IMG/VR virus record: IMGVR_UViG_3300034198_008807
Span: 1-24,942 of that record
Length of the DNA: 24,942 nucleotides
Reading direction: 5' to 3' (one strand)
Origin: a virus
Positions 2,992-23,296 of the stretch are shown here, one piece after another. How positions within the stretch are numbered: the first letter of the stretch is position 1; the number at the start of each line of letters is the position of its first letter. The position numbers and the translations under genes were made by a program. The notes beneath the pieces are model-generated. The model had not been told where the DNA came from and searched no databases. It saw only the letters and a program-made list of their open reading frames with translations.

Positions 2992-5348
2992 TGCTTCAGC
3001 AGATCGACCTTCAGAACCTGTTGAATGGGGTATCCAGACAACCGGACAACATCCGCCTATCGTCTCAAGCCGAGCAGCAGGTCAACGCCGTTTCAGACAT
3101 TGTACAGGGGCTGCGCAAGCGACCTGGTCTTGAACACATCGCCGCTCTTGCGGGGCCGGCTGCAAGCGCATCCTTTCACGTAATCGACAGAGACCCGAAC
3201 CGCCGCTTTATCCTCGGGGTGAGCAGCGGCGCTATCCGGGCGTGGAACCTGAACACAGGGGCTGAAGTGCCGATAACCAACGAGGCCTCCGTCTCGTACC
3301 TTAACTTCACAGGATCCTCGAATGAGGCTTTCCGGTTTCTGACAGTCGCCGACTACACCTTTGTCGTGAACACGCAGGTAGTCCCGGCCATGTCAGCGAT
3401 TTCGACAGGAAGGCCGAACTACTCGGCTATGATCTTCTTCAAGGACATCAGGGCCGGCCAGTGGCACGAGGTATTCATCAACGGTGTTCTCAGGGCCTCT
3501 GTTCCTTCCAATGAGTATGGAGAGGCTAGGGCTGTTGTGTCTGGGGCTGTTTCTCAGATCCTGAACTCGTTTCCTGTGTTTGAAAGGGTCAACTGGATCG
3601 TCAGGGACATCGGCAGCAACGTCGTGTACATCGAGCGTCTCGGTGGCCTTGACTTCACACTCAGGACGAACCAGAGCAACTCCAACATCGTGGTGATCAA
3701 GGAGCGCATTCAGGAGTTCTCGTCCCTTCCAGCCCGTGGCGTTGATGGCATGAAGATCAACGTCATCGGTAACAGCAACAACCAGTTCGATGACTACTGG
3801 GTTCGATACAGCAGCAAGTCGGATCAGGAGAGTGGTGTTTGGGAAGAGAGCAACGCACACGATCTTCTAACCACAATCAACAAGGCAACGATGCCTCATG
3901 CGATTGTCATAGATCCCTCCGGGACATCGTTGACATTCAAGCAGCTTGATTGGGGAACCAGAAACGTAGGTGATGAGAAGAGCGCCCCTATACCGTCATT
4001 CGTCGGCAACCCGATCACTGACGTGTTCTTCTTCAGGAACAGGCTGGGCTTCGTTGCAGACGAAAACGTCGTGATGAGCGAGGCTGGCGAGTTCTTCAAC
4101 TTCTTCGCTACCACAGTCACAGACCTCCTCGACAGTGACCCGATTGATGTGGCCACGTCACACACGAAGGTAACGCCGCTCAAGCGTGCTGTTCCGGTGT
4201 CTGAGCGGCTGGTGCTTCTGTCTGACAGGGCACAGTTCTTCGACAACATCGCCAACGATGACCTGCTCACGCCCAAGACCGCTGCCTTCAAGGCGAAGTC
4301 GGAGTATGAGGGGTACATAGGGCCGGCCAACACCGCGGTTGCAAAGACCACGCTGTTCTTCCCACAGAGGAACAAGGAGTGGTCTCGCATGTGGGAGATG
4401 ATCCCGGATGCAGACAAGAACCCTGGTCAGGATCTGGCGATTGACGTGACGGAGCATGTTCCAGACTACCTTCCAAACAACATCCGGGAGGTTGTCTACC
4501 ATCAGGGAACGTCCAGCCTTTACATCCTGTCCGATCTCCAGCCACGCAGGATATACATCTACAGGTGGCTGATAAAGGACAACAAGCGGGTACAGGCATC
4601 GTGGTCCTACTGGGAGTTCGTGGATCCTGTCATAGACATCCGGGACATGTTCGTCGTTGACAACTGGCTATACGTCGTAAGGACGGTAGGCAGCAGCACG
4701 GACTACCGGCTTGGCAGGATAGACCTCGAGAACCAGGGGGACTTCATCTCCTCGTCTCAGAAGTACCACATCCACCTCGACAACAAGATGCTGCTGACCG
4801 GCGTATACGATGCCGTCAACAACTGGACAACGTGGACCCTTCCGGTGCAGTGGGCGACCACCGTGCCGTTCGTTGTTATCCGCGGCCCGTCATTTTCAAG
4901 CCTGTCTGGCATTGACGTGAACGGCGTGTACAGATCCAGCACCACTCAGGTGCGCGCACCGGGCAACCACACAGAAGCTGCCTGTTTCCTCGGGACAGCT
5001 TACTCCTTCCGCTATCAGTTCTCACGCCTTTACTGGCGAGATGGCGAGGGTCAGGCCGTTGAGGATGGCCGTACAGCGTGCAAGTCAATCACGCTGTACC
5101 TGAAGGACACGGGCTATCTCAAGGCGATTGTGTCACGGGCAAAGCAGTCAGACAGGATCTACGAGATCGGCGTGTCTGTGGGAAACAGCATCAGGACGAT
5201 ACCGCTTCAGGACTTCGAGTTCCGAGTGCCTTTGTACACGAAGAACGAGAACCTGGAGTTCACTCTGGAATCAGACTCGCCTTACCCCCTTCAGGTGACC
5301 AAGGCGAGGGCGATCATTGAGTACACAAACATTGACAGGAGTGTCTGA
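2991..5348 (+). CDS. tail tubular protein B / nozzle (T7 gp12-like)
   Basis: 785 residues; T7 gp12 is 794. It forms the hexameric nozzle of the stubby tail. The N-terminus reads IDLQNLLNGVSRQPDNIRLSS then GLRKRPGLEHIA, the typical gp12 opening (NGVSQQPxxxR, QxxxxxNxxxxVxxGLxKRPG). A central block FVGNPITDVFFFRNRLGFVA is also characteristic of the family. The start overlaps the gp11-like stop (TGATG), and the stop overlaps the next ATG at 5348, giving a translationally coupled run. Arg codons are mixed AGG and CGN. Confidence 0.95.
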   Translation: MLQQIDLQNLLNGVSRQPDNIRLSSQAEQQVNAVSDIVQGLRKRPGLEHIAALAGPAASASFHVIDRDPNRRFILGVSSGAIRAWNLNTGAEVPITNEASVSYLNFTGSSNEAFRFLTVADYTFVVNTQVVPAMSAISTGRPNYSAMIFFKDIRAGQWHEVFINGVLRASVPSNEYGEARAVVSGAVSQILNSFPVFERVNWIVRDIGSNVVYIERLGGLDFTLRTNQSNSNIVVIKERIQEFSSLPARGVDGMKINVIGNSNNQFDDYWVRYSSKSDQESGVWEESNAHDLLTTINKATMPHAIVIDPSGTSLTFKQLDWGTRNVGDEKSAPIPSFVGNPITDVFFFRNRLGFVADENVVMSEAGEFFNFFATTVTDLLDSDPIDVATSHTKVTPLKRAVPVSERLVLLSDRAQFFDNIANDDLLTPKTAAFKAKSEYEGYIGPANTAVAKTTLFFPQRNKEWSRMWEMIPDADKNPGQDLAIDVTEHVPDYLPNNIREVVYHQGTSSLYILSDLQPRRIYIYRWLIKDNKRVQASWSYWEFVDPVIDIRDMFVVDNWLYVVRTVGSSTDYRLGRIDLENQGDFISSSQKYHIHLDNKMLLTGVYDAVNNWTTWTLPVQWATTVPFVVIRGPSFSSLSGIDVNGVYRSSTTQVRAPGNHTEAACFLGTAYSFRYQFSRLYWRDGEGQAVEDGRTACKSITLYLKDTGYLKAIVSRAKQSDRIYEIGVSVGNSIRTIPLQDFEFRVPLYTKNENLEFTLESDSPYPLQVTKARAIIEYTNIDRSV

Positions 5349-11100: not shown

Positions 11101-12859
11101 GCCGGGACTTCGCGTGCTTGGATCCATTGTCCTCGGGGACAAGACCACCCTCAAGGACAGCCTTCACCTGTACTCGGGCATGATGTCCTCTGTTGGTGAC
11201 TCGTGGCGCATGTCAAAGCGCGCCTTCATCGAGGACAAGTCGATCCTCGACATGGGCAACAAAACGAGCGAGGTCAACAACCGCGCATTCAGCGTTCTAG
11301 CTGAAGGCAAGGGAGATGCATTTCAGAAAACAGCCGCGTACATGGACGGCTTCTCTGGCTTCCCGATGAGGATGCTGACAGCGCAGGACGAACTCTTCAA
11401 GCAGATTGCATATCGGTCGTTTATCCACTCAAAGGGTACTCGGCTGGCAATGCAGAAGGTTGAGGACGGAACCCTGAAAGCTGCAGACGTTGATGACTTC
11501 GTCAAGAAGTTCGTGGACGACTCGTTCTCACCGGACGGGCAGTTTGTTGACATGGAGGGCATCCAGTATGCCCGCGAAAGCACGTTCACTCAGGATCTTG
11601 GCCCGATCGGTCAGGACTTCCAGAGGTTCGCGAACAAGCACCCTGCAATCAAGCTGATCTTCCCGTTCATCAGGACGCCGGCCAACCTTCTTTCTGAAGG
11701 GTTCCAGTTGACGCCAGGTCTGCAGTTCCTGTCATCGAGGTTCCGAAAGGATTTCTTCGGAGACGATATTCAGAGGCGAGCAGAGGCCGTAGGCAAGATG
11801 TCCTTCGGGGTAGCAGTCAGTGCTTCGGCACTGGTCTATGCGCTGTCTGGAAACGCAGTTGGCGCAGCCCCAATGGAGCCTGAAGCCAGAAAGAGGTTCG
11901 AGGAGTCTGGCCGCAAGGCATACTCGTTCTATGACACGATCTCTGATCGGTGGATCCAGTTCAACCGAATGGACCCATATGCGCTCCCTGTCGGCATTGC
12001 GGCTGACATTGTGTCTGCCTCTTCGTCAGAGGATTTCAACATCCTCGATGCGTTTCCGGCTATGGCGATCGCCATCGCTGGTAACATCAGGGACAAGAGC
12101 TACCTGACTGGCCTGTCTGACTTTATGAACCTCATTGGCGACGGTCTTTCGGGAGATGCGGACAGGCAGGAAAACCTGTTCTTCAAGACCGTTGGTCAGC
12201 AGGTTGGCACCCTTGTCCCGAACTTCGCTTCGCAGCTAAGTCCAGATGATTACGTGCGGGAGACCCGAACGATGATGGACGAGATCCTGCGCCGTATACC
12301 CGTCTTTGGAGATGCATCGCTTCCTCCAAAGCGTGACGCACTCGGCATTCCGGTGATGAAGGGTGATGGTTGGTTTCTTGGGCTTGAAACCCCCAATTGG
12401 CTATCACCAATGGCCGCGGCTCTGCCACCAGACTCCCCAGTAAGGGAGCAGTTGTTTGAGATGCAAGCCAGCATCCAGAAGCCGGCAAGCAAGATCGGCA
12501 ACCTTGATCTGCGTGACTTCACAAACGACAAGGGGCAGTCAGCGTATGATCGCTGGCTTGAGCTAACTGGAACCCTCAAGGATTCCAGCGGCAAGACCGT
12601 CCTCAAGCGACTGGAAGAGATTGTGCCGAAACTTCAGGAGAAGTACGGCAACATCCGGCCTCAGCGAGACGCTTCAGGCAACGAGTACAAATCACCCGCA
12701 CAAGAAGCGATTACTGCAATTGTAGGCAGATACCGCAACGCTGCGCGGGCGCAGATGTACAAGGAGTTCCCCGAGGTCTACTCGGCTATCAATCAGGAAA
12801 AGCGCAGGGCCTCAAGAGCCGGTCGCGCCAATGCAGCCACGCTGCTGCAGCAACAGTAA
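8177..12859 (+). CDS. large internal virion/ejection protein (T7 gp16-like, no SLT domain)
   Basis: 1560 residues against 1318 in T7 gp16. This position encodes the giant ejection protein that crosses the cell wall and inner membrane. Residues 1-110 are acidic and Pro-rich. Residues about 170-300 hold Gly/Ala hydrophobic stretches. Residues about 413-605 are a TolA-like Ala/Lys/Glu heptad-rich coiled coil. After residue 950 come mixed hydrophobic segments (WRTGALLYGPRTMVTNLLGT, near 955). T7 gp16 carries a lytic transglycosylase domain at its N-terminus. I see no ES catalytic motif or GLMQ-type signature here, so wall-degrading activity appears to be missing or elsewhere. AGGAG at 8166-8170 overlaps the gp15-like stop and sets ATG 8177. 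Confidence 0.82.
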   Translation: MADQTVPEGAAVSPTNEQDDWGQIDAMLSAGSNTDVEQLPAPPPSLTPQEDEVLSRGVDYYTASREERQIKNTAEQKLKQLDDYTRMNAAAAPSDPWGDQIERSVLGFSPNAVARRGIETAFLELTRSVQDIADSTGISDALGFEQGRGAEAIQQWADSIPNAGPGEKAMSDIFAFVASFAGYSKLLKGFGVASNAVRWGTAGGLADAFGQDPFAEGIADLLKDAQIPGISDSDFITWLAKDGNEYDNVWEQRFRNLVEGTLVGEAVGGTAYLGGKLWGVVKSMRDARVAAQKGDTAAAQAAMDAATEEADAFARDSGQAYFDPDKMAWQQNLYRQPDLTVKQGDPFYQRRIESAPLEAEFQGAPRTQPLDAEISVVLRDIDLSKNAELTQWRDPLLKLQAKEAAITAELDDVASGVKKLEADEAAAKQASEKAAAEAAAKAEKAAKAEAEKAKLDAEKAQVEAANKAEREAIEAANKAEKEAVKAAKEAEAAASAVKASAPSEPAKPLTEKQAAAAKAREEKAAAAAKVAKEREAAAAVAKAQKDRAVAAAKAEKEKAIAKAKADKAAALAKVEAEKAQAAAKEASDKAAQAAQASKEAAEQLGWRREGISLRQTVLRNELEQIKSNIGGYPKPPETPDTLPGVVKQGGVDQVQAEKVRFKYVFGGELEKAKARLARERAAEKPQGAKAEKSQGAKTTEPAAGTDGRGLVTPTVSTTVRRGARPGTEQALNSFASAVGKGDPEAALEAFGRTFNPFRMNTSDDVSVIIGQAADALRQAGVKVDHKTTEAAIRDTARIMGKSPAKVMESIAALASNVDEAPAILVAARNMIKTLGRDIHDISKQIVSNKAAGKDTSALREQLRKRMAQLVTALPDTTMVRHRTATTTWSGNMLAEETTHAEQIASLIKRLEGDEDGAVELISRLSPDQAAEAARRIVKSSSWMDALVQWRTGALLYGPRTMVTNLLGTGLWAATKPGLRVLGSIVLGDKTTLKDSLHLYSGMMSSVGDSWRMSKRAFIEDKSILDMGNKTSEVNNRAFSVLAEGKGDAFQKTAAYMDGFSGFPMRMLTAQDELFKQIAYRSFIHSKGTRLAMQKVEDGTLKAADVDDFVKKFVDDSFSPDGQFVDMEGIQYARESTFTQDLGPIGQDFQRFANKHPAIKLIFPFIRTPANLLSEGFQLTPGLQFLSSRFRKDFFGDDIQRRAEAVGKMSFGVAVSASALVYALSGNAVGAAPMEPEARKRFEESGRKAYSFYDTISDRWIQFNRMDPYALPVGIAADIVSASSSEDFNILDAFPAMAIAIAGNIRDKSYLTGLSDFMNLIGDGLSGDADRQENLFFKTVGQQVGTLVPNFASQLSPDDYVRETRTMMDEILRRIPVFGDASLPPKRDALGIPVMKGDGWFLGLETPNWLSPMAAALPPDSPVREQLFEMQASIQKPASKIGNLDLRDFTNDKGQSAYDRWLELTGTLKDSSGKTVLKRLEEIVPKLQEKYGNIRPQRDASGNEYKSPAQEAITAIVGRYRNAARAQMYKEFPEVYSAINQEKRRASRAGRANAATLLQQQ

Positions 12860-12862
12860 CTC

Positions 12863-12882
12863 GTGGGGGCTTAGTCCCCCAC
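12863..12882 (+). terminator. GC-rich hairpin between the gp16-like and fibre genes
   Basis: A 7-bp stem (12863-12869 with 12876-12882, five G-C pairs in a row) closes a six-base loop and starts four bases after the gp16-like stop. The downstream ACTTCATT is only weakly T-rich, so this may be a partial terminator or a 3'-end stabilising hairpin rather than a strong intrinsic terminator. The fibre gene's AGGAA (12892-12896) follows. Confidence 0.5.
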
Positions 12883-12901
12883 ACTTCATTCAGGAACAGA
12901 C

Positions 12902-15900
12902 ATGCCATACAGTTTCGCCCGCTACACGTCTGCGGGGAGCGCGGGGCCGTACACGGTTCCGTTCTCATACCGGCAGAGGAGCGATGTTCTGGTCTACGTA
13001 AACGGCGTATCCGTTCCGTTTACATGGCCCACCTCTTCAACCGTTACACTCAATTCCGCTCCTGTAGCTGGTGCCCTTGTTGAAATCCGACGAGAGACCA
13101 GTGAGGACGCGCGTCTTACACAATGGTCTTCGATCAACCAGATCGACGCAGACAACCTTGAAACGATGTCTGTGCAGTCGTTCAACCTTGCGCAAGAGGC
13201 AATCGACACCGCTCGAGACGCCAAGGCGAAGGCTCTCCGAGTAGCGGACAGGGAGGCGGACATTGGTCCTATCCCCAGTGCTACGGCTCGCGCCAACAGA
13301 TACCTGGGCTTCGATGCCAGCGGCAACATCACTCTCTATCAGGGTGAGCAGCTTGGTGGCACAATCGATCCAAACACCGCTCCGCGCGCGTCACAGTATG
13401 TGGTGATGACGGCAGATGCCACGCTGACGAACGAGCGTGTGCTTGCTGTCGGCACGGGCCTGTCTCTTACTGACGGCGGGGCAGGCGGCAGTGCAACCAT
13501 CGCTGTGCCGAACGACGGCATCACAAACACGCAGCTAAACAACATGGCGCAGAACACGCTCAAGGGGCGTGTTTCGACAGGCACCGGAGATCCAGAGGAT
13601 CTGACTGCTGCACAGGTAATCTCGCTTCTGACTGCAGCAGATGGCCCCGGCTCTCTGCTTGACGCTGACACGGTAGACGGCATTCAGGGATCTGCCATTG
13701 TTCAGAATACGCGGCAGGTTATTGCTGGTGCCGGCCTTGAGGGCGGCGGCTCACTGTCGGTTGACAGAACGCTGGGTATCAGCGGCGGCGGTGTTATCAA
13801 CACCATGCTGGCCAACATTCCGCAGAACACCATCAAGGGACGCATTTCACCCGGCGTGGGTTCTCCTGAAGACCTCACCGCGGGGCAGTTGATCACCATG
13901 CTGCAGATTGCAGATGGTGCAGGTTCTGGACTTGATGCTGACACTCTGGACGGCCTTCAGGGGTCCGCGTATCTGGCTGCTGTCCGTCAGGTGCAGACAG
14001 GGGCGGGCCTGACAGGGGGCGGCGACCTGACAGAGGATCGCACCATTGCTGTAGCCACAAACGGCATCACAAACACGCTGTTGGCACAGGTTGATACCGC
14101 CACGATAAAGGGCCGTTTTGCTGCTGGAACTGGCAACGTGCAGGATCTTACCCCGGCACAGGTTGTAAGCATCATTCATCAGGCGGACGGACCAGGCTCT
14201 CTGCTTGACGCCGACACCCTTGACGGGATTCAGGCCGCTGCGTTTGTGCAAACAACGAGAAGTATCAACACGACGGGTGCCCTGACAGGCGGCGGATCTC
14301 TTGCTGCTGATCTCACCCTCAGTATCAGCCCCGGCAGTGTCACTGACGCTATGCTGTCTCAGGTAAGCTCCGGTATCATTCGCGGTCGCGCATCCGCTGG
14401 TAGCGGCAACATCGAGAACCTGAGTGCGGCACAGGTCACTGCGCTGCTCAACAACATGGTCGGTGCCACGGCATTTACTGCAGGCACGAAGGGACTTGTT
14501 CCTGCGGCTGCAGCCGGTGAGCAGTCTCTGTTCCTGCGTGGCGACGGTACGTGGCAACCTGCAGCAGGTGGCGGTGGCGGCTCTGGTGCACCAATCGCCG
14601 GCAAGTACATCGCCTATGGCTCTGACACGGGCCTGTCTGACGAGCGTGTTCTGGCTGTCGAAGCGGGGGCACTGACGCTTACGGATGCTGGCGTAGGTGG
14701 TGGCAACATCACAATCGCAGTAGCAACCAACGGCATCACGAACGGCAAGCTTGCCACGATGACGGCGGGAACGATCAAGGGACGCAACACAGGCACGGGT
14801 TCACCGGAAGACCTGACGGCTACCCAAGTAACGGCCCTCCTCAATAATATGGTGGGTTCCAACGGCACCGTCGCTGGAACCAAGGGACTTGTTCCCGCAC
14901 CGGGGGCCACCGACAACACGCTTTACCTGCGTGGCGACGGTACGTGGGCGGCTCCATCTGGATCCGGCGCTCCGACAACGGCGACCTACGTCACCATCAC
15001 GACCGATGCCACACTGACGAACGAGCGAACCCTTGCTGCTGAAGCGGGCGTCCTCTCGCTCACGGATGCGGGTGCTGGTCTTGCGGCTACGCTCGGTGTT
15101 GCTGCCAACGGCATCTCCAATGCCAAGCTGCGGCAGGGTGCGGCACTGTCTGTCATTGGCAACGCAACAAACGCCACTGCAAACGTGGCAGACATTGCGG
15201 CTGCTACAGACGGACATGTGCTTCGCAGGTCTGGCACGGCTCTCGGCTTCGGCACCATCGCAACGGCTGGTATCGGCGACGATCAGGTGACCTACGCCAA
15301 GCTGCAGAACATGACCACGCAGCGTCTCATCGGGCGTACAACGGCAGCAGCCGGTGACCCAGAAGAACTGTCAGTCACAGCACCTCTGACCCTTGTGGCC
15401 GGCTCTGGAACGCTGAACTTCGACCAGACGGCAGCGATCGGAAACAACGCCCGCGTTGCTGTACTGAACAATGGTGCTGCTGTCGGCACACGGCGCGGAA
15501 TCAACCTGATCCCAGGATCCGGCGTAACATACTCTATCGCGGATGACTCTGCGAACGAGCGCGTCAACGTCACAATCAACTCGTCCGCAACAGGTGCGCC
15601 GGCTGGTGCAGCCTACTTAACACTTGCCCTTGATGGCACACTCACCAGCGAGCGTGTCCTTGCCGCAGGAACGGGAATATCCCTGACGGATGGTGGTGCA
15701 AATGGCAACGCCACCCTAGCGTTGAATGTCAACGGCCTCACCACTGCTGCAAGTTCAAGCTATTTGAACGACTTCGTAGCCATCCACAGCGCATCTGAAG
15801 GTGGTCCACGGAAACTGGCTCTTCAGAACATCAAGCCGACAGAAGCCATCGTTGTAGCTTGTTCTGACGAGAATACGGCTGGCATCACACTCAGCACGTC

Positions 15901-16216
15901 CGTGCCGAAGGTGAGATTCAGGATGCCGTATGCATTCACGCTTACGGACATCAAGGCATCGCTGAATGCCGCACAGGCATCGGGAGCAACACTGTTCACC
16001 GTAGACGTGCGAAAGAGTGGTTCAACTATCTTCACCACGCAAATGACCTTTGACAACACGGAAACAACTACCGTTACTGCGGTTACACCGCGTGTTCTCA
16101 CAGCAAACCCGACAACCTTCACTGCCGACGAGGAAGTCACGATCTTCGTGTCAAACAACACGGCAGGAAACGTCGCGGCTGGTCTCAAGGTCACTATGAT
16201 TGGGTCGAGGACGTAA
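12902..16216 (+). CDS. tail fibre protein with T7 gp17-like N-terminus and repeat shaft
   Basis: 1104 residues, twice the T7 fibre (553). Residues 1 to about 150 match the T7 fibre attachment domain: SAGPYTVPFSYRQRSDVLVY, then a VNGVxxPFTW segment and a helix with TMSVQSFNLAQEA. The shaft holds repeats with TNERVLA, LTDGG, (G/V)I(T/S)N..L, TIKGR..G.G.PEDLT..Q, LDADTLDG, TKGLVP and LRGDGTW. Repeat starts lie near 13517, 13792, 14062, 14336, 14729 and 15108. Residues about 984-1104 form a beta-rich end domain (VRFRMPYAFTLTDIKASLNA onward), of a type I recall at fibre ends in other podophages. It should bind the tail through its N-terminus and the receptor at the distal end. The stop overlaps the next ATG (TAATG). 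Confidence 0.92.
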   Translation: MPYSFARYTSAGSAGPYTVPFSYRQRSDVLVYVNGVSVPFTWPTSSTVTLNSAPVAGALVEIRRETSEDARLTQWSSINQIDADNLETMSVQSFNLAQEAIDTARDAKAKALRVADREADIGPIPSATARANRYLGFDASGNITLYQGEQLGGTIDPNTAPRASQYVVMTADATLTNERVLAVGTGLSLTDGGAGGSATIAVPNDGITNTQLNNMAQNTLKGRVSTGTGDPEDLTAAQVISLLTAADGPGSLLDADTVDGIQGSAIVQNTRQVIAGAGLEGGGSLSVDRTLGISGGGVINTMLANIPQNTIKGRISPGVGSPEDLTAGQLITMLQIADGAGSGLDADTLDGLQGSAYLAAVRQVQTGAGLTGGGDLTEDRTIAVATNGITNTLLAQVDTATIKGRFAAGTGNVQDLTPAQVVSIIHQADGPGSLLDADTLDGIQAAAFVQTTRSINTTGALTGGGSLAADLTLSISPGSVTDAMLSQVSSGIIRGRASAGSGNIENLSAAQVTALLNNMVGATAFTAGTKGLVPAAAAGEQSLFLRGDGTWQPAAGGGGGSGAPIAGKYIAYGSDTGLSDERVLAVEAGALTLTDAGVGGGNITIAVATNGITNGKLATMTAGTIKGRNTGTGSPEDLTATQVTALLNNMVGSNGTVAGTKGLVPAPGATDNTLYLRGDGTWAAPSGSGAPTTATYVTITTDATLTNERTLAAEAGVLSLTDAGAGLAATLGVAANGISNAKLRQGAALSVIGNATNATANVADIAAATDGHVLRRSGTALGFGTIATAGIGDDQVTYAKLQNMTTQRLIGRTTAAAGDPEELSVTAPLTLVAGSGTLNFDQTAAIGNNARVAVLNNGAAVGTRRGINLIPGSGVTYSIADDSANERVNVTINSSATGAPAGAAYLTLALDGTLTSERVLAAGTGISLTDGGANGNATLALNVNGLTTAASSSYLNDFVAIHSASEGGPRKLALQNIKPTEAIVVACSDENTAGITLSTSVPKVRFRMPYAFTLTDIKASLNAAQASGATLFTVDVRKSGSTIFTTQMTFDNTETTTVTAVTPRVLTANPTTFTADEEVTIFVSNNTAGNVAAGLKVTMIGSRT

Positions 16217-16821
16217 TGGCTGTTACCTTTATCAACTCGTTCTGGAGCGGGTTTACCCCTGTAACCAGAACATACAACTCTGGTTCCGGCACTGAAACGG
16301 TGCCTACGGGTGCAACACAGGTTCTCATCTCCGTCTGGGGCGGCGGGGCGAGCGGTCAAAGAACATTGGTTGTTGGATCGGCTGGTGGTGGTGGTGGCGG
16401 CTTCACTCAAAGACAAATTGCCGTCACAGGCGGCAACACAATGAGTTACGCTGTTGGCACAGGTGGGGCAGGAAGAACCACAAGCGGTGTGCAAAACCCC
16501 GGCAGCAACTCGACCGTGACCGGGACTGTTTCTGGTGGAAGCGTAAGTATGACAGGTGGAGGGGCTTCAGGCTTTTCAGGCGGAACAGCCTCTGGGGGAA
16601 CTACGAATGTGAGTGGCGTTGATGGGCAAAGTGGTGAGCTTAGTGCGTTCAACGGAGCTGGTGGAGCGGCTGGTGGAATTGCTGGTTTCATAGGAGGCAC
16701 TGGCGGATCTCAGGGAACAAACGGAATCCAGCCAGGAGGTGGAGGCGGCGGTGGCGATAACACAACCCCGATGAACTCTGGCGCTGGTGCGGCTGGCCGC
16801 ATCATCTTCACATACACATAG
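16216..16821 (+). CDS. glycine-rich protein, probable fibre tip or second receptor-binding protein
   Basis: 201 residues. After an N-terminal part (MAVTFINSFWSGF, TETVPTGATQVLISVWGGG) the sequence is dominated by Gly, Ser, Thr and Ala, with runs of six to seven Gly (positions 16385-16400 and 16736-16755). The C-terminus is GAAGRIIFTYT. Such glycine-rich domains, with polyglycine type II helix packing in phage S16 gp38, occur in adhesins at fibre ends. It is coupled to the fibre gene by TAATG, supporting a joint role in host recognition. It may alternatively be an independent virion protein. It has no signal peptide. Confidence 0.7.
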   Translation: MAVTFINSFWSGFTPVTRTYNSGSGTETVPTGATQVLISVWGGGASGQRTLVVGSAGGGGGGFTQRQIAVTGGNTMSYAVGTGGAGRTTSGVQNPGSNSTVTGTVSGGSVSMTGGGASGFSGGTASGGTTNVSGVDGQSGELSAFNGAGGAAGGIAGFIGGTGGSQGTNGIQPGGGGGGGDNTTPMNSGAGAAGRIIFTYT

Positions 16822-18042: not shown

Positions 18043-19710
18043 ATGAGCGTTTTACCTACTGAACTGCATGACTTCAGGAACTTCCTATTCCTCGCGTGGG
18101 AGTATCTCAACCTCCCGCCTCCCACCGACATCCAGTATGACATAGCGGACTACCTTCAGGCTGGCCCACGCCGTCGCGTCATTAAGGCCTTCCGCGGTGT
18201 AGGCAAGTCGTGGATTACCTCTGCCTATGTCTGCTGGAGGCTGGGGATGGACCCGCAGGTCAACATCTTCGTGGTCTCGGCCAGCAAGCAGCGTGCCGAT
18301 GACTTCACCACCTTCACAAGGCAGCTTATCGATCTGATGCCTGAACTGCATGCCCTGAAGCCGCAGGACGGGCAGAGAGATTCAAAAATCAGCTTTGATG
18401 TCGGTCCAGCCCTGCCTGACCACGCCCCAAGCGTCAAGAGTGCAGGTATCACTGGACAGCTATCCGGTAGTCGTGCTGACGAGATCATCGCCGATGACAT
18501 CGAGGTGCCAAACAACTCTGCAACCCCGGACATGCGTGACAAGCTGGCTGAACTCATCAAGGAGTTCGACGCCATCCTCAAGCCCAACGGCATTATCACC
18601 TATCTGGGTACACCGCAGACAGAAGAGACGATCTACTCCCGCCTTCAGGAAAGAGGCTACGAGACGCGCATATGGCCCGCCAGATACCCCGACAAGAGAA
18701 TGCAGGATATCTATGGCGACAGGCTGGCCCCGCGGATTGCCACCGCTGTTGAGAAGACACAGCGGCTTATCGGCAAGACCACTGACCCCAAGAGATTCAG
18801 CGACACTGACCTGCTGGAGCGCGAACTGTCCTATGGCAGGTCAGGCTTTGCCTTGCAGTTCATGCTCGACACAAGCCTCTCAGATGCCAACAAGTACCCC
18901 CTGAAGCTCAACGATCTTGTGGTGATGTCAGGTGTCTCAACGTGGACACAGGCACCTATAAGTTACCAATGGGCATCGGGACCAGACCAGAGGAAACTCG
19001 TAGAGCACCTGGCATCGGTTGGACTGCGTGGTGATTACTACGTAGGTCCAATGAGAGTCTCCGAGACCTTCCAGCCATTCCAAGGCTCCCTGATGTACAT
19101 CGATCCATCAGGAAAGGGTGGGGACGAACTGGCCTACGCAGTGGTCAAGCTGCTGGCCGGCAACCTGTATCTCACTTGCTGGGGAGGATTGCAGGGTGGT
19201 TACACGGACCAGAACCTCATCAGGCTGTGTGAGATAGCCAGAACCCAGAGGGTGAACCACTGCCAGATCGAGGCAAACTTCGGTGATGGCATGTTCACCC
19301 AGTTGCTCAAGCCTCACATGAACAGGATCTACCCCCTGCACCTTGAAGACGTGAAGGTCGGGGGTATGCAGAAGGAACTCAGGATCATCAGTAACCTTGA
19401 ACCCGTCCTCAACCAGCACAGGCTTGTGGTGGCTATGGAGGGCATCAAGGCTGAACTGGCTGACGATCGTGACTACCAGCTTATGTACCAGATATCCCGC
19501 ATCACCAAGGATCGTGGTGCCTTAAGGCATGATGACCGCATCGATGCTGTGGCTGGTGCTGTCAGCTACTGGACCAAGTACCTTCAGGTTGATCAGACAC
19601 GAGCAGAGGAAGACCACAGGGAGGCCCTCCTTCAGAAGGATCTGGATGCCTTCATGGAGACGGCCATAGGCAGGAAGCCGAGGCCAGTGGTGTGGGCCAG
19701 TGTCAAATGA
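18043..19710 (+). CDS. terminase large subunit (T7 gp19-like)
   Basis: 555 residues; T7 gp19 is 586. It is the ATP-driven packaging motor and DNA-cutting enzyme. The N-terminal ATPase has Walker A at about residues 49-56 (AFRGVGKS, as in T7) and Walker B around 148-154 (IIADDIE, with Asp152 and Glu154). The C-terminal RNase H-like nuclease shows MYIDPSGKGGDE (Asp354) and the late acidic motif HDDRIDAVAGA (Asp497, Asp498, Asp501). AAGGGG precedes ATG 18043. Arg codons are mixed, by my count about 22 AGR to 16 CGN. CpG thins out toward the 3' end. The stop overlaps the next ATG (ATGA). Confidence 0.96.
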   Translation: MSVLPTELHDFRNFLFLAWEYLNLPPPTDIQYDIADYLQAGPRRRVIKAFRGVGKSWITSAYVCWRLGMDPQVNIFVVSASKQRADDFTTFTRQLIDLMPELHALKPQDGQRDSKISFDVGPALPDHAPSVKSAGITGQLSGSRADEIIADDIEVPNNSATPDMRDKLAELIKEFDAILKPNGIITYLGTPQTEETIYSRLQERGYETRIWPARYPDKRMQDIYGDRLAPRIATAVEKTQRLIGKTTDPKRFSDTDLLERELSYGRSGFALQFMLDTSLSDANKYPLKLNDLVVMSGVSTWTQAPISYQWASGPDQRKLVEHLASVGLRGDYYVGPMRVSETFQPFQGSLMYIDPSGKGGDELAYAVVKLLAGNLYLTCWGGLQGGYTDQNLIRLCEIARTQRVNHCQIEANFGDGMFTQLLKPHMNRIYPLHLEDVKVGGMQKELRIISNLEPVLNQHRLVVAMEGIKAELADDRDYQLMYQISRITKDRGALRHDDRIDAVAGAVSYWTKYLQVDQTRAEEDHREALLQKDLDAFMETAIGRKPRPVVWASVK

Positions 19711-20176: not shown

Positions 20177-20211
20177 CACAGGGGCCTCTGTTAGGGCACA
20201 GGGGCCTCTGT
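20177..20211 (+). repeat. 20-base tandem duplication with 15 identical bases
   Basis: CACAGGGGCCTCTGT occurs at 20177-20191 and again at 20197-20211, a period of 20 bases. It lies 60 bases after the last late gene. Short repeat arrays flank the terminal redundancy of T7, and this may be an equivalent. Confidence 0.85.
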
Positions 20212-20842: not shown

Positions 20843-20995
20843 AGGGTGCGCCGCATGAGAACACGGAAGGGCAAGGCGCATCTTTTCTGTGCTTGTGTGT
20901 GATTTGGTGCGTTTTTGCTTTTGCTGCGTCATCCGGTCGCATGATTTTCTGCTAATCGGGCATGCAGTACCGGATTGAACCCGGCAGCGCATTGT

Positions 20996-21034
20996 GCGCA
21001 GTATCGCCACACATTCACGAAGGGAAACGCTATG
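20996..21034 (+). promoter_or_regulatory. early-gene leader module, copy A (divergent)
   Basis: GCGCAGTATCGC (20996-21007) is followed by CACGAAGGGAAA (21017-21028) and ATG 21032. It matches the better copies at 21599 and 22382 in the CAGTA core, the CACGAAGGGA ribosome-binding segment and their spacing. A second partial core, GCATGCAGTAC, lies at 20960-20970. Confidence 0.6.
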
Positions 21035-21544
21035 ACGTTCACAGATGCTGATTTCACAACCATTTGCACACTGGATACAGCCTTCTTTCGGCTTTGTACC
21101 GATGCTAGCACAGGAGAGGAAACCGCGTGGTACGCTGATATTAGCGACCTTACCGCATCAATCTCACCCTGCAATGAAGGCTATAGGTTGCGTCTTGGCG
21201 TTGACGTGTCGAACAACGCCGAAGAGGCGTTTGACTGCCTCCGCACCTTTGTCGTCGCAGATCTTTCCATGGCAATCGAAAAGGTGCACGCATACCTCAA
21301 TGCGTCACTGCCCCTCGAAGTGCGTCCGGGACCATCGGATGCGTATATGCTGGATGTTGCAGGCACGCACTATGCCGTGTGGCTCGCCATATGGTGCGAG
21401 TCGCACACGCTGGACGCATCCGCACCCAATTGGATCTTCGGCCACGTTACCCGCGACAACAACGCCTACCCAATAAGCGATGCACTCAGTGCGCGCTATG
21501 CCCTGCTTACCGCCGCCGCGTATCTCATATCCAAGGGATACTAG
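21032..21544 (+). CDS. acidic protein of unknown function, first early gene
   Basis: 170 residues; I do not recognise the family. By my count it has about 22 Asp/Glu against 9 Lys/Arg, so it is clearly acidic. It has no signal peptide; the hydrophobic stretches (YAVWLAIW, YALLTAAAYLI) are short. ATG 21032 is set by GAAGGG at 21019-21024, part of the leader shared with later genes. A longer TTG-initiated frame upstream lacks such a site. It is the first gene after the non-coding junction, the position of the acidic antirestriction gene 0.3 (Ocr) in T7. A similar host-defence role is only a positional guess. Its Arg codons are mostly CGN. Confidence 0.72.
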   Translation: MTFTDADFTTICTLDTAFFRLCTDASTGEETAWYADISDLTASISPCNEGYRLRLGVDVSNNAEEAFDCLRTFVVADLSMAIEKVHAYLNASLPLEVRPGPSDAYMLDVAGTHYAVWLAIWCESHTLDASAPNWIFGHVTRDNNAYPISDALSARYALLTAAAYLISKGY

Positions 21545-21616
21545 TCCACTATCTAGCCACACCACACTGTGGCTAGCCATGTGCACTAGTGCACTAACGC
21601 ATGCAGTACTGCATGC
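21541..21616 (+). promoter_or_regulatory. three consecutive palindromes with four CTAG sites
   Basis: Right after the stop at 21544 come a hairpin with 9-bp arms (21553-21561 with 21568-21576, six-base loop), a perfect 14-base palindrome (21581-21594, centre CACTAGTG) and a perfect 18-base palindrome (21599-21616, centre AGTACT). CTAG, usually rare in bacterial and phage DNA, occurs at 21541, 21553, 21573 and 21586. The hairpin may terminate or stabilise the upstream mRNA. The two perfect palindromes look like operators for a dimeric regulator. Confidence 0.75.
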
Positions 21617-21641
21617 ATCACACGAAGGGAAACAAGCCATG
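21599..21641 (+). promoter_or_regulatory. early-gene leader module, copy B
   Basis: The perfect 18-base palindrome (21599-21616) is followed by ACACGAAGGGA (21620-21630) and AGCCATG (start codon 21639). From the core to the start codon it closely matches the leader at 22382-22419. Confidence 0.8.
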
Positions 21642-22382
21642 AAGCTTCTAACGATAGGCAATCCGAAAACGCTCAAAGGCCAAGCGCAAGGCTACATCAC
21701 AGCCGTGTTGCACCTTGCCCCTGCATCAACCTCTGGGTGGAATGTTTGCCCTATGGCCACGAAGGGATGCAAAGCGGCTTGCCTCAATACCGCGGGCAGG
21801 GGCGGTATCGCTGCGGGCAATGCGACGTTCGAGAGTGCAGAGGGTTCGCTCCCTGATAACGCAATCCAGAAGGCACGCATTGCTCGCACGAAATGGTTTT
21901 TCACAGACCGTGAAGCCTTCATGGCGCAACTTGTCACTGAGGTTTACGCATTCGTGAACAAGGCCAAGAAGGCAGGGCTTATCCCATGCGTTCGCCTCAA
22001 TGGCACGTCTGATATTCGCTGGGAGCGTATCCCGTGCAATGGCCTTGAAAATATCATGGCAGAGTTTCCCGCCGTGCAATTCTACGACTACACCAAGCTT
22101 GCGAACCGCAAGGGCGTTCCCTCGAACTATCACCTCACCTTTAGCCTCGCAGAGGATAACGATGCACACGCTGCGTCCGTTCTCGCTGCTGGCGGCAATG
22201 TCGCAGTGGTCTATCGCGACAAGGCTTTGCCGCAGACCTATGCGATAGCGGGAACAACGCGAGAGGTTGTTTCCGGCGATGATAGCGATCTGCGGTTCCT
22301 AGATCCGCGAGGCGTGATTGTTGGCTTGTATGCCAAGGGCAAGGCAAAGCGCGACACGCTCGGATTCGTGCGTCCCAATTAA
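21639..22382 (+). CDS. GP88-family phage protein
   Basis: 247 residues. It resembles the phage gene product 88 family (GP88): MKLLTIGNPKTLKGQAQGYI opening, then a cysteine block CPMATKGCKAACL with Cys37, Cys44 and Cys48, an RLNGTSDIRWE segment, and FYDYTKL. The three clustered cysteines could bind zinc or an iron-sulfur cluster; no biochemical role is established to my knowledge. Start ATG 21639 follows GAAGGG. An in-frame upstream extension would cross the palindromes and is rejected. It is followed without a gap by another copy of the same leader, whose first base is shared with the stop codon. Arg codons are almost all CGN. Confidence 0.8.
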   Translation: MKLLTIGNPKTLKGQAQGYITAVLHLAPASTSGWNVCPMATKGCKAACLNTAGRGGIAAGNATFESAEGSLPDNAIQKARIARTKWFFTDREAFMAQLVTEVYAFVNKAKKAGLIPCVRLNGTSDIRWERIPCNGLENIMAEFPAVQFYDYTKLANRKGVPSNYHLTFSLAEDNDAHAASVLAAGGNVAVVYRDKALPQTYAIAGTTREVVSGDDSDLRFLDPRGVIVGLYAKGKAKRDTLGFVRPN

Positions 22383-22419
22383 TGCAGTAACGCATATAAC
22401 ACGAAGGGATAAAGCCATG
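22382..22419 (+). promoter_or_regulatory. early-gene leader module, copy C
   Basis: ATGCAGTAACGCAT (22382-22395) overlaps the GP88 stop codon by one base and is followed by ACACGAAGGGA (22400-22410) and AGCCATG (start 22417). The palindrome is reduced to ATGC/GCAT ends, but the spacing and the ribosome-binding part match copy B. Confidence 0.8.
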
Positions 22420-22998
22420 AGAGTATTGGTAGCTTGTGAGAGTAGCGGCACAGTCCGCGAGGCATTCAGGGCAAAGGGACATGAGGCGTGGTCATGCGAC
22501 CTGCTGCCAGCAGATGACGGATCACTCTTTCATCTGCAGGGTGATGCTAGGGATATTCTGCGCGATGGGTGGGACATGCTGATCGCACACCCACCATGCA
22601 CGCGCCTCACGAATAGCGGCGTGAGGTGGCTTCACGAGAGGAACCTATGGGATGAACTGAGGGAGGCGTGCGACCTGTTTAACGCTTTCCTGCACGCTCG
22701 CATCCCGCTCAAGTGCATCGAAAACCCTATCCCGCATCGCTACGCGCTCGAGCGTATCGGCCGCCGCTATGATCAAATAATTCAGCCTTGGCAATTCGGC
22801 CACGGGGAGACGAAGGCCACATGCCTATGGCTCAATGGTTTGCCCAAGCTTGCGCCGACCAACATCGTGGAAGGGCGCAAGGGGTATTGCCACAGTCTGC
22901 CGCCCTCGCCTGATCGCTGGAAGCTTCGCAGCAAAACCTACCAAGGGATTGCGGATGCAATGGCTGATCAGTGGTCCGCAGTTTACAAGCACGCATAG
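22417..22998 (+). CDS. C5-methyltransferase-like protein lacking the target recognition part
   Basis: 193 residues, with the order of motifs seen in cytosine-5 methyltransferases: a VLVACESSGTVREAF segment in place of motif I, WSCDLLP (motif II-like), LQGDARDI (motif III-like), DMLIAHPPCTRL with Pro59-Pro60-Cys61 (motif IV), and CIENPIP with Glu102-Asn103 (motif VI). Full enzymes exceed 300 residues. Motifs VIII-X and a target domain are not visible, and the normal FxGxGG SAM-binding loop is altered. It may modify a nucleotide or RNA rather than a specific DNA site, or be inactive. Such short proteins recur in phages. The start is fixed by the GAAGGG leader. GAACCTATGG-type codon use is not unusual here. 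Confidence 0.72.
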   Translation: MRVLVACESSGTVREAFRAKGHEAWSCDLLPADDGSLFHLQGDARDILRDGWDMLIAHPPCTRLTNSGVRWLHERNLWDELREACDLFNAFLHARIPLKCIENPIPHRYALERIGRRYDQIIQPWQFGHGETKATCLWLNGLPKLAPTNIVEGRKGYCHSLPPSPDRWKLRSKTYQGIADAMADQWSAVYKHA

Positions 22999-23008
22999 GG
23001 GAGCAGCC

Positions 23009-23203
23009 ATGTACTATCAAAACGTAATCCGCCAGATCGATCCGTCGATCGATGCCGCAGCCGTCGAGGCATGGATGCGATTGCAGTACCACACGCTCAA
23101 CCATCTGCCTCATGAGACATTCGTGGCTGAGGTGGCGCTATACAAAGAGGCGCGCATGACATTCGATCAGGCGCGGCGGCTGAAGCGATCATTCGGATTG
23201 TGA
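23009..23203 (+). CDS. small protein of unknown function
   Basis: 64 residues, not recognised. It is predicted helical and amphipathic, with an acidic first half (IDPSIDAAAVEAWM) and a basic end (FDQARRLKRSFGL). The start ATG 23009 follows GGGGAGC (22998-23004), ten bases after the methyltransferase-like stop, so the two genes are probably co-transcribed. Longer in-frame extensions run back inside the upstream gene and are rejected. No membrane segment. Confidence 0.65.
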   Translation: MYYQNVIRQIDPSIDAAAVEAWMRLQYHTLNHLPHETFVAEVALYKEARMTFDQARRLKRSFGL

Positions 23204-23244
23204 GGCCACGGCCAGGAAACTGCGACAATTTGGCATGGTGCATC

Positions 23245-23296
23245 ATATGCAGTAATGCATATTATGGCGACAACAAGAGAGAAGGGAAAAAGGATG
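23245..23296 (+). promoter_or_regulatory. early-gene leader module, copy D
   Basis: ATATGCA (23245-23251) and TGCATAT (23256-23262) are perfect inverted arms around GTAA, giving a core ATGCAGTAATGCAT (23247-23260) that differs by one base from copy C. The ribosome-binding part is AGAAGGGA (23279-23286), farther from the core than in copies B and C, and precedes ATG 23294. Confidence 0.75.

Follow-up and report, generated by a model that had tools for sequence, protein, structure and literature searches.

The virus record IMGVR_UViG_3300034198_008807 (24,942 nucleotides, nt), analysed here over its entire length and called the window, contains structural genes followed by a T7-type terminase, a metalloprotease-like gene, a gene-free stretch of about 900 nt, and a series of early genes starting at 21032, 21639, 22417, 23009, 23294, and 23553. 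The leaders of genes 21032, 21639, 22417, and 23294 carry a repeated dyad-symmetric sequence of 14 base pairs (bp), designated sites A to D, respectively, and this element is the subject of the present analysis. The terminase identifies the phage as T7-like, and an RNA polymerase gene was seen in its closest relative, not in the window record. The record has no close match among 50,697 phage records, and gene 21032 has no relatives in the viral contigs searched.

Site A lies 56 nt before the ATG of gene 21032, and the cores of sites B (21601), C (22382), and D (23247) lie 20–35 nt before start codons. With at most one mismatch, ATGCAGTANYGCAT occurs in the record only at 20962 and at these three positions, all in early leaders, and with up to three mismatches it occurs 34 times versus 11.3 expected. 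In a leave-one-out test, a symmetric 14-bp matrix was trained without the tested site and scored over the 24.9-kilobase record, and each of the four sites outranked every other non-site position. The mean dyad symmetry is 5.8 of 7 pairs versus 1.75 by chance. Neither the mismatch search nor the matrix detected a site at the level of the four members in the late genes or the structural region of the window. The same annotation had described a perfect 18-bp palindrome at site B and 7-bp arms around GTAA at site D, and both are present. Three of its four shared cores stand (21601, 22382, and 23247); the remaining one, GCGCAGTATCGCCA at 20996, fails the leave-one-out test with 242 non-site positions scoring higher, and the site of gene 21032 is site A, 34 bp upstream.

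The core and (CAC)GAAGGGA had initially been joined in one leader element. The core holds, but CACGAAGGGA is an ordinary Shine-Dalgarno stretch that is separate from it, since (CAC)GAAGGGA is also found exactly inside genes (14485 and 21758) and its distance from the core varies (8, 6, and about 20 nt). Judged by sequence, the shared leader most likely combines a 14-bp dyad-symmetric DNA operator with a separate Shine-Dalgarno stretch. Leaders B and C resemble each other across about 38 bases as described, but only with a 2-nt gap. Leader duplication could give such likeness, and the palindrome would then be a similarity without function or due to chance; this explanation is hardly credible in view of the leave-one-out ranks and of the relative described next, where the same places are occupied by a changed sequence.

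The closest relative is IMGVR_UViG_3300048670_000236 (G001; 42,956 nt with a 127-bp terminal direct repeat), whose coordinates are given on the reverse complement (rc) and whose identity with the window is 73% in GP88, 78% in the methyltransferase-like gene, and 81% in the terminase. All five of its sites are noncoding, four of the five pass the leave-one-out test, and no such site lies upstream of its late genes (Table 1). The half-site is ATGCGGT in G001 and ATGCAGT in the window, with the change on both arms. The extended 21-bp matrix gave scores of 21.8 or more for the G001 sites and up to 11.8 in four shuffles; the symmetric 14-bp matrix was used for the final test because the extended one mixes strand-specific flanks. 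Site A is the best window match of the independent G001 matrix (16.0, while six shuffles reach 15.1). The window matrix, applied to G001, ranks four true sites among the top six positions (scores of 15.0–17.5 versus up to 15.8 in six shuffles), a cross-test that is supportive, not decisive. The window (20925-20969) and G001 (rc 32521-32570) also share some 45 nt of their noncoding left regions, CTGCGTCAnCCnGTCGCATGATTTTCyGCyAAnnnGGGCATGCA, possibly the early promoter region. Among viral contigs, the exact motif had two matches (L164 and L165), both within a gene on the opposite strand and dismissed as chance, and GCATGCNGTANYGCATGC had 25 matches including G001, estimated to be about the chance expectation. 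With the protease-like gene as probe, the other matches were not T7-like phages of this kind.

Table 1. Features of the window and of the relative G001. Positions refer to the window unless marked rc (reverse complement of G001).
Feature	Position	Strand	Remarks
Operator-like site A, ATGCAGTACCGGAT	20962..20975	.	Upstream of gene 21032; leave-one-out score tops all other non-site positions
Weaker tandem site, GTGCACTAACGCAT	21589..21602	.	12 bp upstream of site B; G001 has a matching 12-bp tandem
Operator-like site B, perfect 18-bp palindrome GCATGCAGTACTGCATGC	21599..21616	.	Core ATGCAGTACTGCAT at 21601-21614
Operator-like site C, ATGCAGTAACGCAT	22382..22395	.	Its first A doubles as the final base of the GP88 stop codon; TATAAC follows
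Operator-like site D, ATATGCAGTAATGCATAT	23245..23262	.	Core ATGCAGTAATGCAT at 23247-23260; 7-bp arms around GTAA
G001 weaker tandem, TTGCACTATCGCAT	rc 32974		12 bp before main site 32986, like GTGCACTAACGCAT in the window
G001 site before GP88, GCATGCCGTATCGCATGC	rc 32986		Same place as window site B
G001 site at GP88 stop, ATCCGATACCGCAT	rc 33768		Same place as window site C
G001 site before RNA polymerase	rc 40425		Weaker; fails leave-one-out
G001 site 3 nt after RNA polymerase stop	rc 74 (= 42903)		Score 28.3
G001 site before reductase gene	rc 7364		
G001 MarR-like winged-helix protein, 110 amino acids	rc 38490-38819		phrog_9665 'transcriptional regulator', E 3.6e-22
GAAGGGA, Shine-Dalgarno stretch of gene 21032	21019..21025	+	Sequence
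GAAGGGA, Shine-Dalgarno stretch of GP88	21624..21630	+	Sequence
GAAGGGA, Shine-Dalgarno stretch of methyltransferase-like gene	22403..22409	+	Sequence
GAAGGGA, Shine-Dalgarno stretch of gene 23294	23281..23287	+	Sequence
T7-type terminase, after structural genes	18043-19710		Family match Terminase-T7_RNaseH-like
Early gene, 170 amino acids	21032..21544	+	No family found
GP88 family gene	21639..22382	+	PF17338, phrog_1617
'DNA methyltransferase'-type (methyltransferase-like) gene	22417..22998	+	phrog_757
Small early gene, 85 amino acids	23294..23551	+	Start uncertain: in-frame ATG at 23255 falls within site D
PAPS-reductase-like gene	start 23553		

Immediately upstream of the ribosome-binding site, 7-bp hairpins can fold from sites B and D, as expected of an RNA element that opens each early message and controls its translation or stability. 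Folding of the four leaders had been proposed as a check on this idea. Leader D folds better than its shuffles (z -2.66), whereas the other three leaders do not, and no Rfam match was found. Several G001 sites (ATCC..GCAT, AGTT..GCAT) are not self-complementary and cannot pair, the left and right halves having lost their complementarity, and in phage LUZ100 the corresponding element in promoters P1 and P2 lies upstream of the mapped start. An RNA element, which the initial annotation had considered alongside an operator, is therefore highly improbable.

Repeated elements in leaders, including one directly after the polymerase gene as in T7, would also be expected of promoters for the phage's own single-subunit RNA polymerase. 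The leader-repeat test picks up the T7 and gh-1 promoters as well, so repetition in leaders is not specific to operators. Such promoters had been set aside as not palindromic, which does not hold because the T7 promoter CTCACTATAGGGAG is partly palindromic; palindromy alone thus does not exclude a promoter. T7-like phages need promoters across their structural genes, and the absence of the sites from the late genes, both in the window structural region and upstream of the late genes of G001, rules against a phage-polymerase promoter in the window. The T7 promoters reach a dyad symmetry of only 2.7 of 7 pairs, and the spacing between core and GAAGGGA in the window is not fixed. The dyad scores of the LUZ100 (3.6) and Pasto (3.8) elements are not above that of the gh-1 promoters (3.8); for LUZ100 it is the promoter map that argues against a phage promoter, since two host promoters contain its site and the annotated phage promoters phi1-phi5 do not. 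Promoters of the phage polymerase are very unlikely as an explanation.

G001 encodes a candidate for the protein that would bind these sites. Its 110-amino-acid MarR-like protein matches Pfam MarR_2 just under the cut-off (7.8e-6) and has a weak PDB match to a MarR protein; a single-sequence structure model was poor (mean predicted local distance difference test score, pLDDT, 61) and was not used. Directly downstream of the regulator is a sequence recognised by eye as a tRNA-Leu remnant; an integrase of the tyrosine type (PF00589), a hairpin resembling a terminator, and the RNA polymerase come next. In T7-like phages that carry an integrase, such as LUZ100, RHEph01, and HTVC019P, among others, related proteins bear a MarR family annotation, and the same cassette is present in LUZ100, RHEph01, TRX32-1, and HTVC019P. 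MarR-like proteins are the common factor across this temperate set; according to its record, TRX32-1 was obtained by induction of a lysogen. According to the LUZ100 study (PMC10134795), the MarR-like gene and integrase are co-transcribed, and repression of the polymerase by the MarR-like protein via sites flanking its promoter is a hypothesis cited from earlier work. The study could not obtain lysogens, and the MarR binding sites are hypothesised only (PMC10134795).

Leaders were searched de novo for dyad-like 14-mers that recur, with 30 shuffles per phage. The search yielded a phage-specific motif in 4–7 leaders each of LUZ100 (ATCCACTAGCGCAT), RHEph01 (ATCCACCCGTGGAT), TRX32-1 (ATCCACGGGTGGAT), YIMV22061 (TCTCGCTTCCGAGA), RHph_I20 (CACATTCCGATGTG), and Pasto (TCACTCAAGGGTGA), which is more than in any shuffle. 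A motif copy follows the polymerase stop by 3–7 nt in G001, LUZ100, RHEph01, YIMV22061, and RHph_I20; at this place Lo5R7ANS has a borderline motif and HTVC019P the palindrome TATGCACACCTGCATA. The motif also occurs just after the GP88-type gene in TRX32-1 and at the same-place gene in RHEph01 and YIMV22061. RHEph01 and TRX32-1 share one motif and have near-identical MarR proteins. In TRX32-1 (L372), candidate sites stand at 3000, 6385, 6473, 6790, 7573, and 8934. Pelagiphage motifs were inseparable from the AT-rich background.

In LUZ100, the host promoters P1 and P2 have been mapped, and the 17 bp that separate their -35 and -10 hexamers are taken up by the sites at 378 and 579 (TTGACA-N4-ATCCACCAGCGCA-TAAGAT); no site falls in the annotated intervals of phi1-phi5. 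In P1, ATCCACCAGCGCAT is the candidate binding sequence for gp10, the putative regulator of LUZ100. RHEph01 and TRX32-1 have one such promoter arrangement each, by sequence (TTTACA, 17 bp, TATATG or TAGGTA). At window sites C and D, the hexamer TATAAC or TATTAT starts at the last base of the site, like the -10 in P1 and P2; its reading as a promoter -10 is only suggestive because no convincing -35 was seen.

The sites probably form an operator array, and a dimer of the phage's own MarR-like regulator would bind it, shut off early transcription, and favour lysogeny. A repeated operator for a dimeric, probably phage-encoded regulator had been suggested at the outset, and the suggestion gains from the dyad symmetry, the restriction to early leaders, the positions kept in G001, the symmetric change of the half-site, and the MarR-like gene in G001, for whose product ATGCGGTACCGCAT is the candidate binding site. 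We infer the MarR-like protein as the binder, repression as the effect of binding, and a regulator in the window phage, the last because the record stops short of the region in question. In the proposed mechanism, a dimer of the MarR-like regulator would bind the 14-bp dyads across the early region and silence early transcription in the lysogen, and in G001 it would also keep transcription from entering or leaving the polymerase gene. Initiation would be blocked at sites within host promoters, while sites right after stop codons could add roadblocks or cover internal promoters. When the regulator is absent or released, the early genes would be on and lytic growth would follow.

Several points weigh against this proposal. 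The window record has neither regulator nor integrase, as it ends before that part of the genome, and only one close relative was found (terminase probes gave G001 alone). In G001, the window matrix puts 7222 and the intragenic 39698 among the true sites, and the leader-restricted repeat search did not by itself single out this motif, which was found by position and confirmed by matrix. Several sites sit between a gene end and the next ribosome-binding site without a recognisable promoter, and no good -35 hexamer lies beside the window sites by inspection or a sigma-70 scan, which gave nothing useful. The detection of T7 and gh-1 promoters by the leader-repeat test belongs here as well.

Perfect palindromes, different in sequence in each phage, were also observed in three distant T7-like phages, L291, L293, and L295, in 6-10 copies each (TGTAGnnCTACA at 11782-16380, TGGGAnnTCCCA at 11797-16803, and TTGTCnnGACAA at 3352-4059, respectively). 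Those of L291 and L293 are at matching places, some in open reading frames, and one immediately precedes a TACACT hexamer that lies upstream of the RNA polymerase. The three records gave no integrase match, and no MarR match was found among the L291 and L293 proteins tested.

Because L291 and L293 have arrays and gave no MarR or integrase match in the searches made, palindrome arrays may not need a MarR protein, and the binder could be another dimeric regulator, either a host repressor or a different phage protein. The lack of a regulator gene in the window record fits this alternative, as does the half-site ATGCRGT, which is not diagnostic of MarR proteins. Nevertheless, the motif differs between phages and yet is common to RHEph01 and TRX32-1 with their near-identical MarR proteins, and MarR-like proteins are what the temperate set has in common; another regulator is thus rather unlikely, and the phage's MarR-like protein is preferred as the binder.

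Control by the MarR-like protein would resemble the lysogeny control of the LUZ100 type in its cassette of MarR-like regulator, tRNA-Leu, integrase, terminator, and RNA polymerase, which G001 has, and in the dyad-type sites that the present analysis found in LUZ100, near whose polymerase promoter sites have been proposed (PMC10134795). The available part of that account places sites only on either side of the polymerase's upstream promoter (PMC10134795), whereas the sites described here also flank the first early genes, follow the polymerase, and accompany further genes; moreover, each phage has its own motif, and the window record does not reach the regulator. The array is also similar to the stoperators of Cluster A mycobacteriophages (L5 type), in which a repressor-type site is repeated in short intergenic gaps and its sequence shifts between relatives. 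Stoperators are not symmetric, serve an unrelated repressor, and halt elongation, whereas the window sites are dyad-symmetric, fewer, and found in a T7-like phage. Positions just after stop codons fit the stoperator model, and by analogy a block of elongation may occur here. T7 and gh-1 promoters are likewise short repeated leader elements with one copy right after the polymerase gene, but they are less dyad-symmetric, have a fixed relation to the start site, and also precede late genes, which the window element does not.

Other repeated elements were observed in these genomes. CGCAAAATCAAAC is found exactly in G001 before the capsid-region gene 13163 (rc 13135) and before an early gene (rc 36463), and AATCAAAC also lies ahead of the window capsid gene (1349); this element is a candidate part of a phage promoter. 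In HTVC019P (L373), the non-palindromic 13-nt repeat AAATCAACAATCA at 1548, 1888, 2356, and 7360, in several leaders and once after the RNA polymerase, could be a phage promoter. In the window, a perfect 9-bp inverted repeat (CTAGCCACA-ccacac-TGTGGCTAG, 21553-21576) without a T run lies between gene 21032 and GP88, and two copies of CACAGGGGCCTCTGT, separated by 20 nt, lie in the noncoding stretch that follows the protease-like gene (20177-20211).

Lysogeny modules of the MarR type, with their binding sites, were proposed earlier. The present analysis adds an uncultivated lineage with such sites, positions that are kept despite the changed sequence, the placement in LUZ100 P1 and P2, and a spread of sites wider than in the available part of the LUZ100 account (PMC10134795); some of this may already have been described. 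More tentatively, it is possible, though somewhat doubtful, that temperate T7-like phages share a genome-wide silencing grid, in which operators at kept places (around early genes, past the polymerase stop, and in host promoters) have been rewritten in sequence with the cognate MarR-like protein of each lineage, giving rise to immunity groups, and some sites act as roadblocks instead of promoter operators. For the question of how T7-like phages stay quiet as prophages, the motifs are concrete candidate binding sites in several phages. With two such sites in mapped LUZ100 promoters, both the MarR model and lineage-specific immunity are directly testable. The motifs also show that a contig assigned to the T7-like phages by its structural genes may be part of a temperate lineage.

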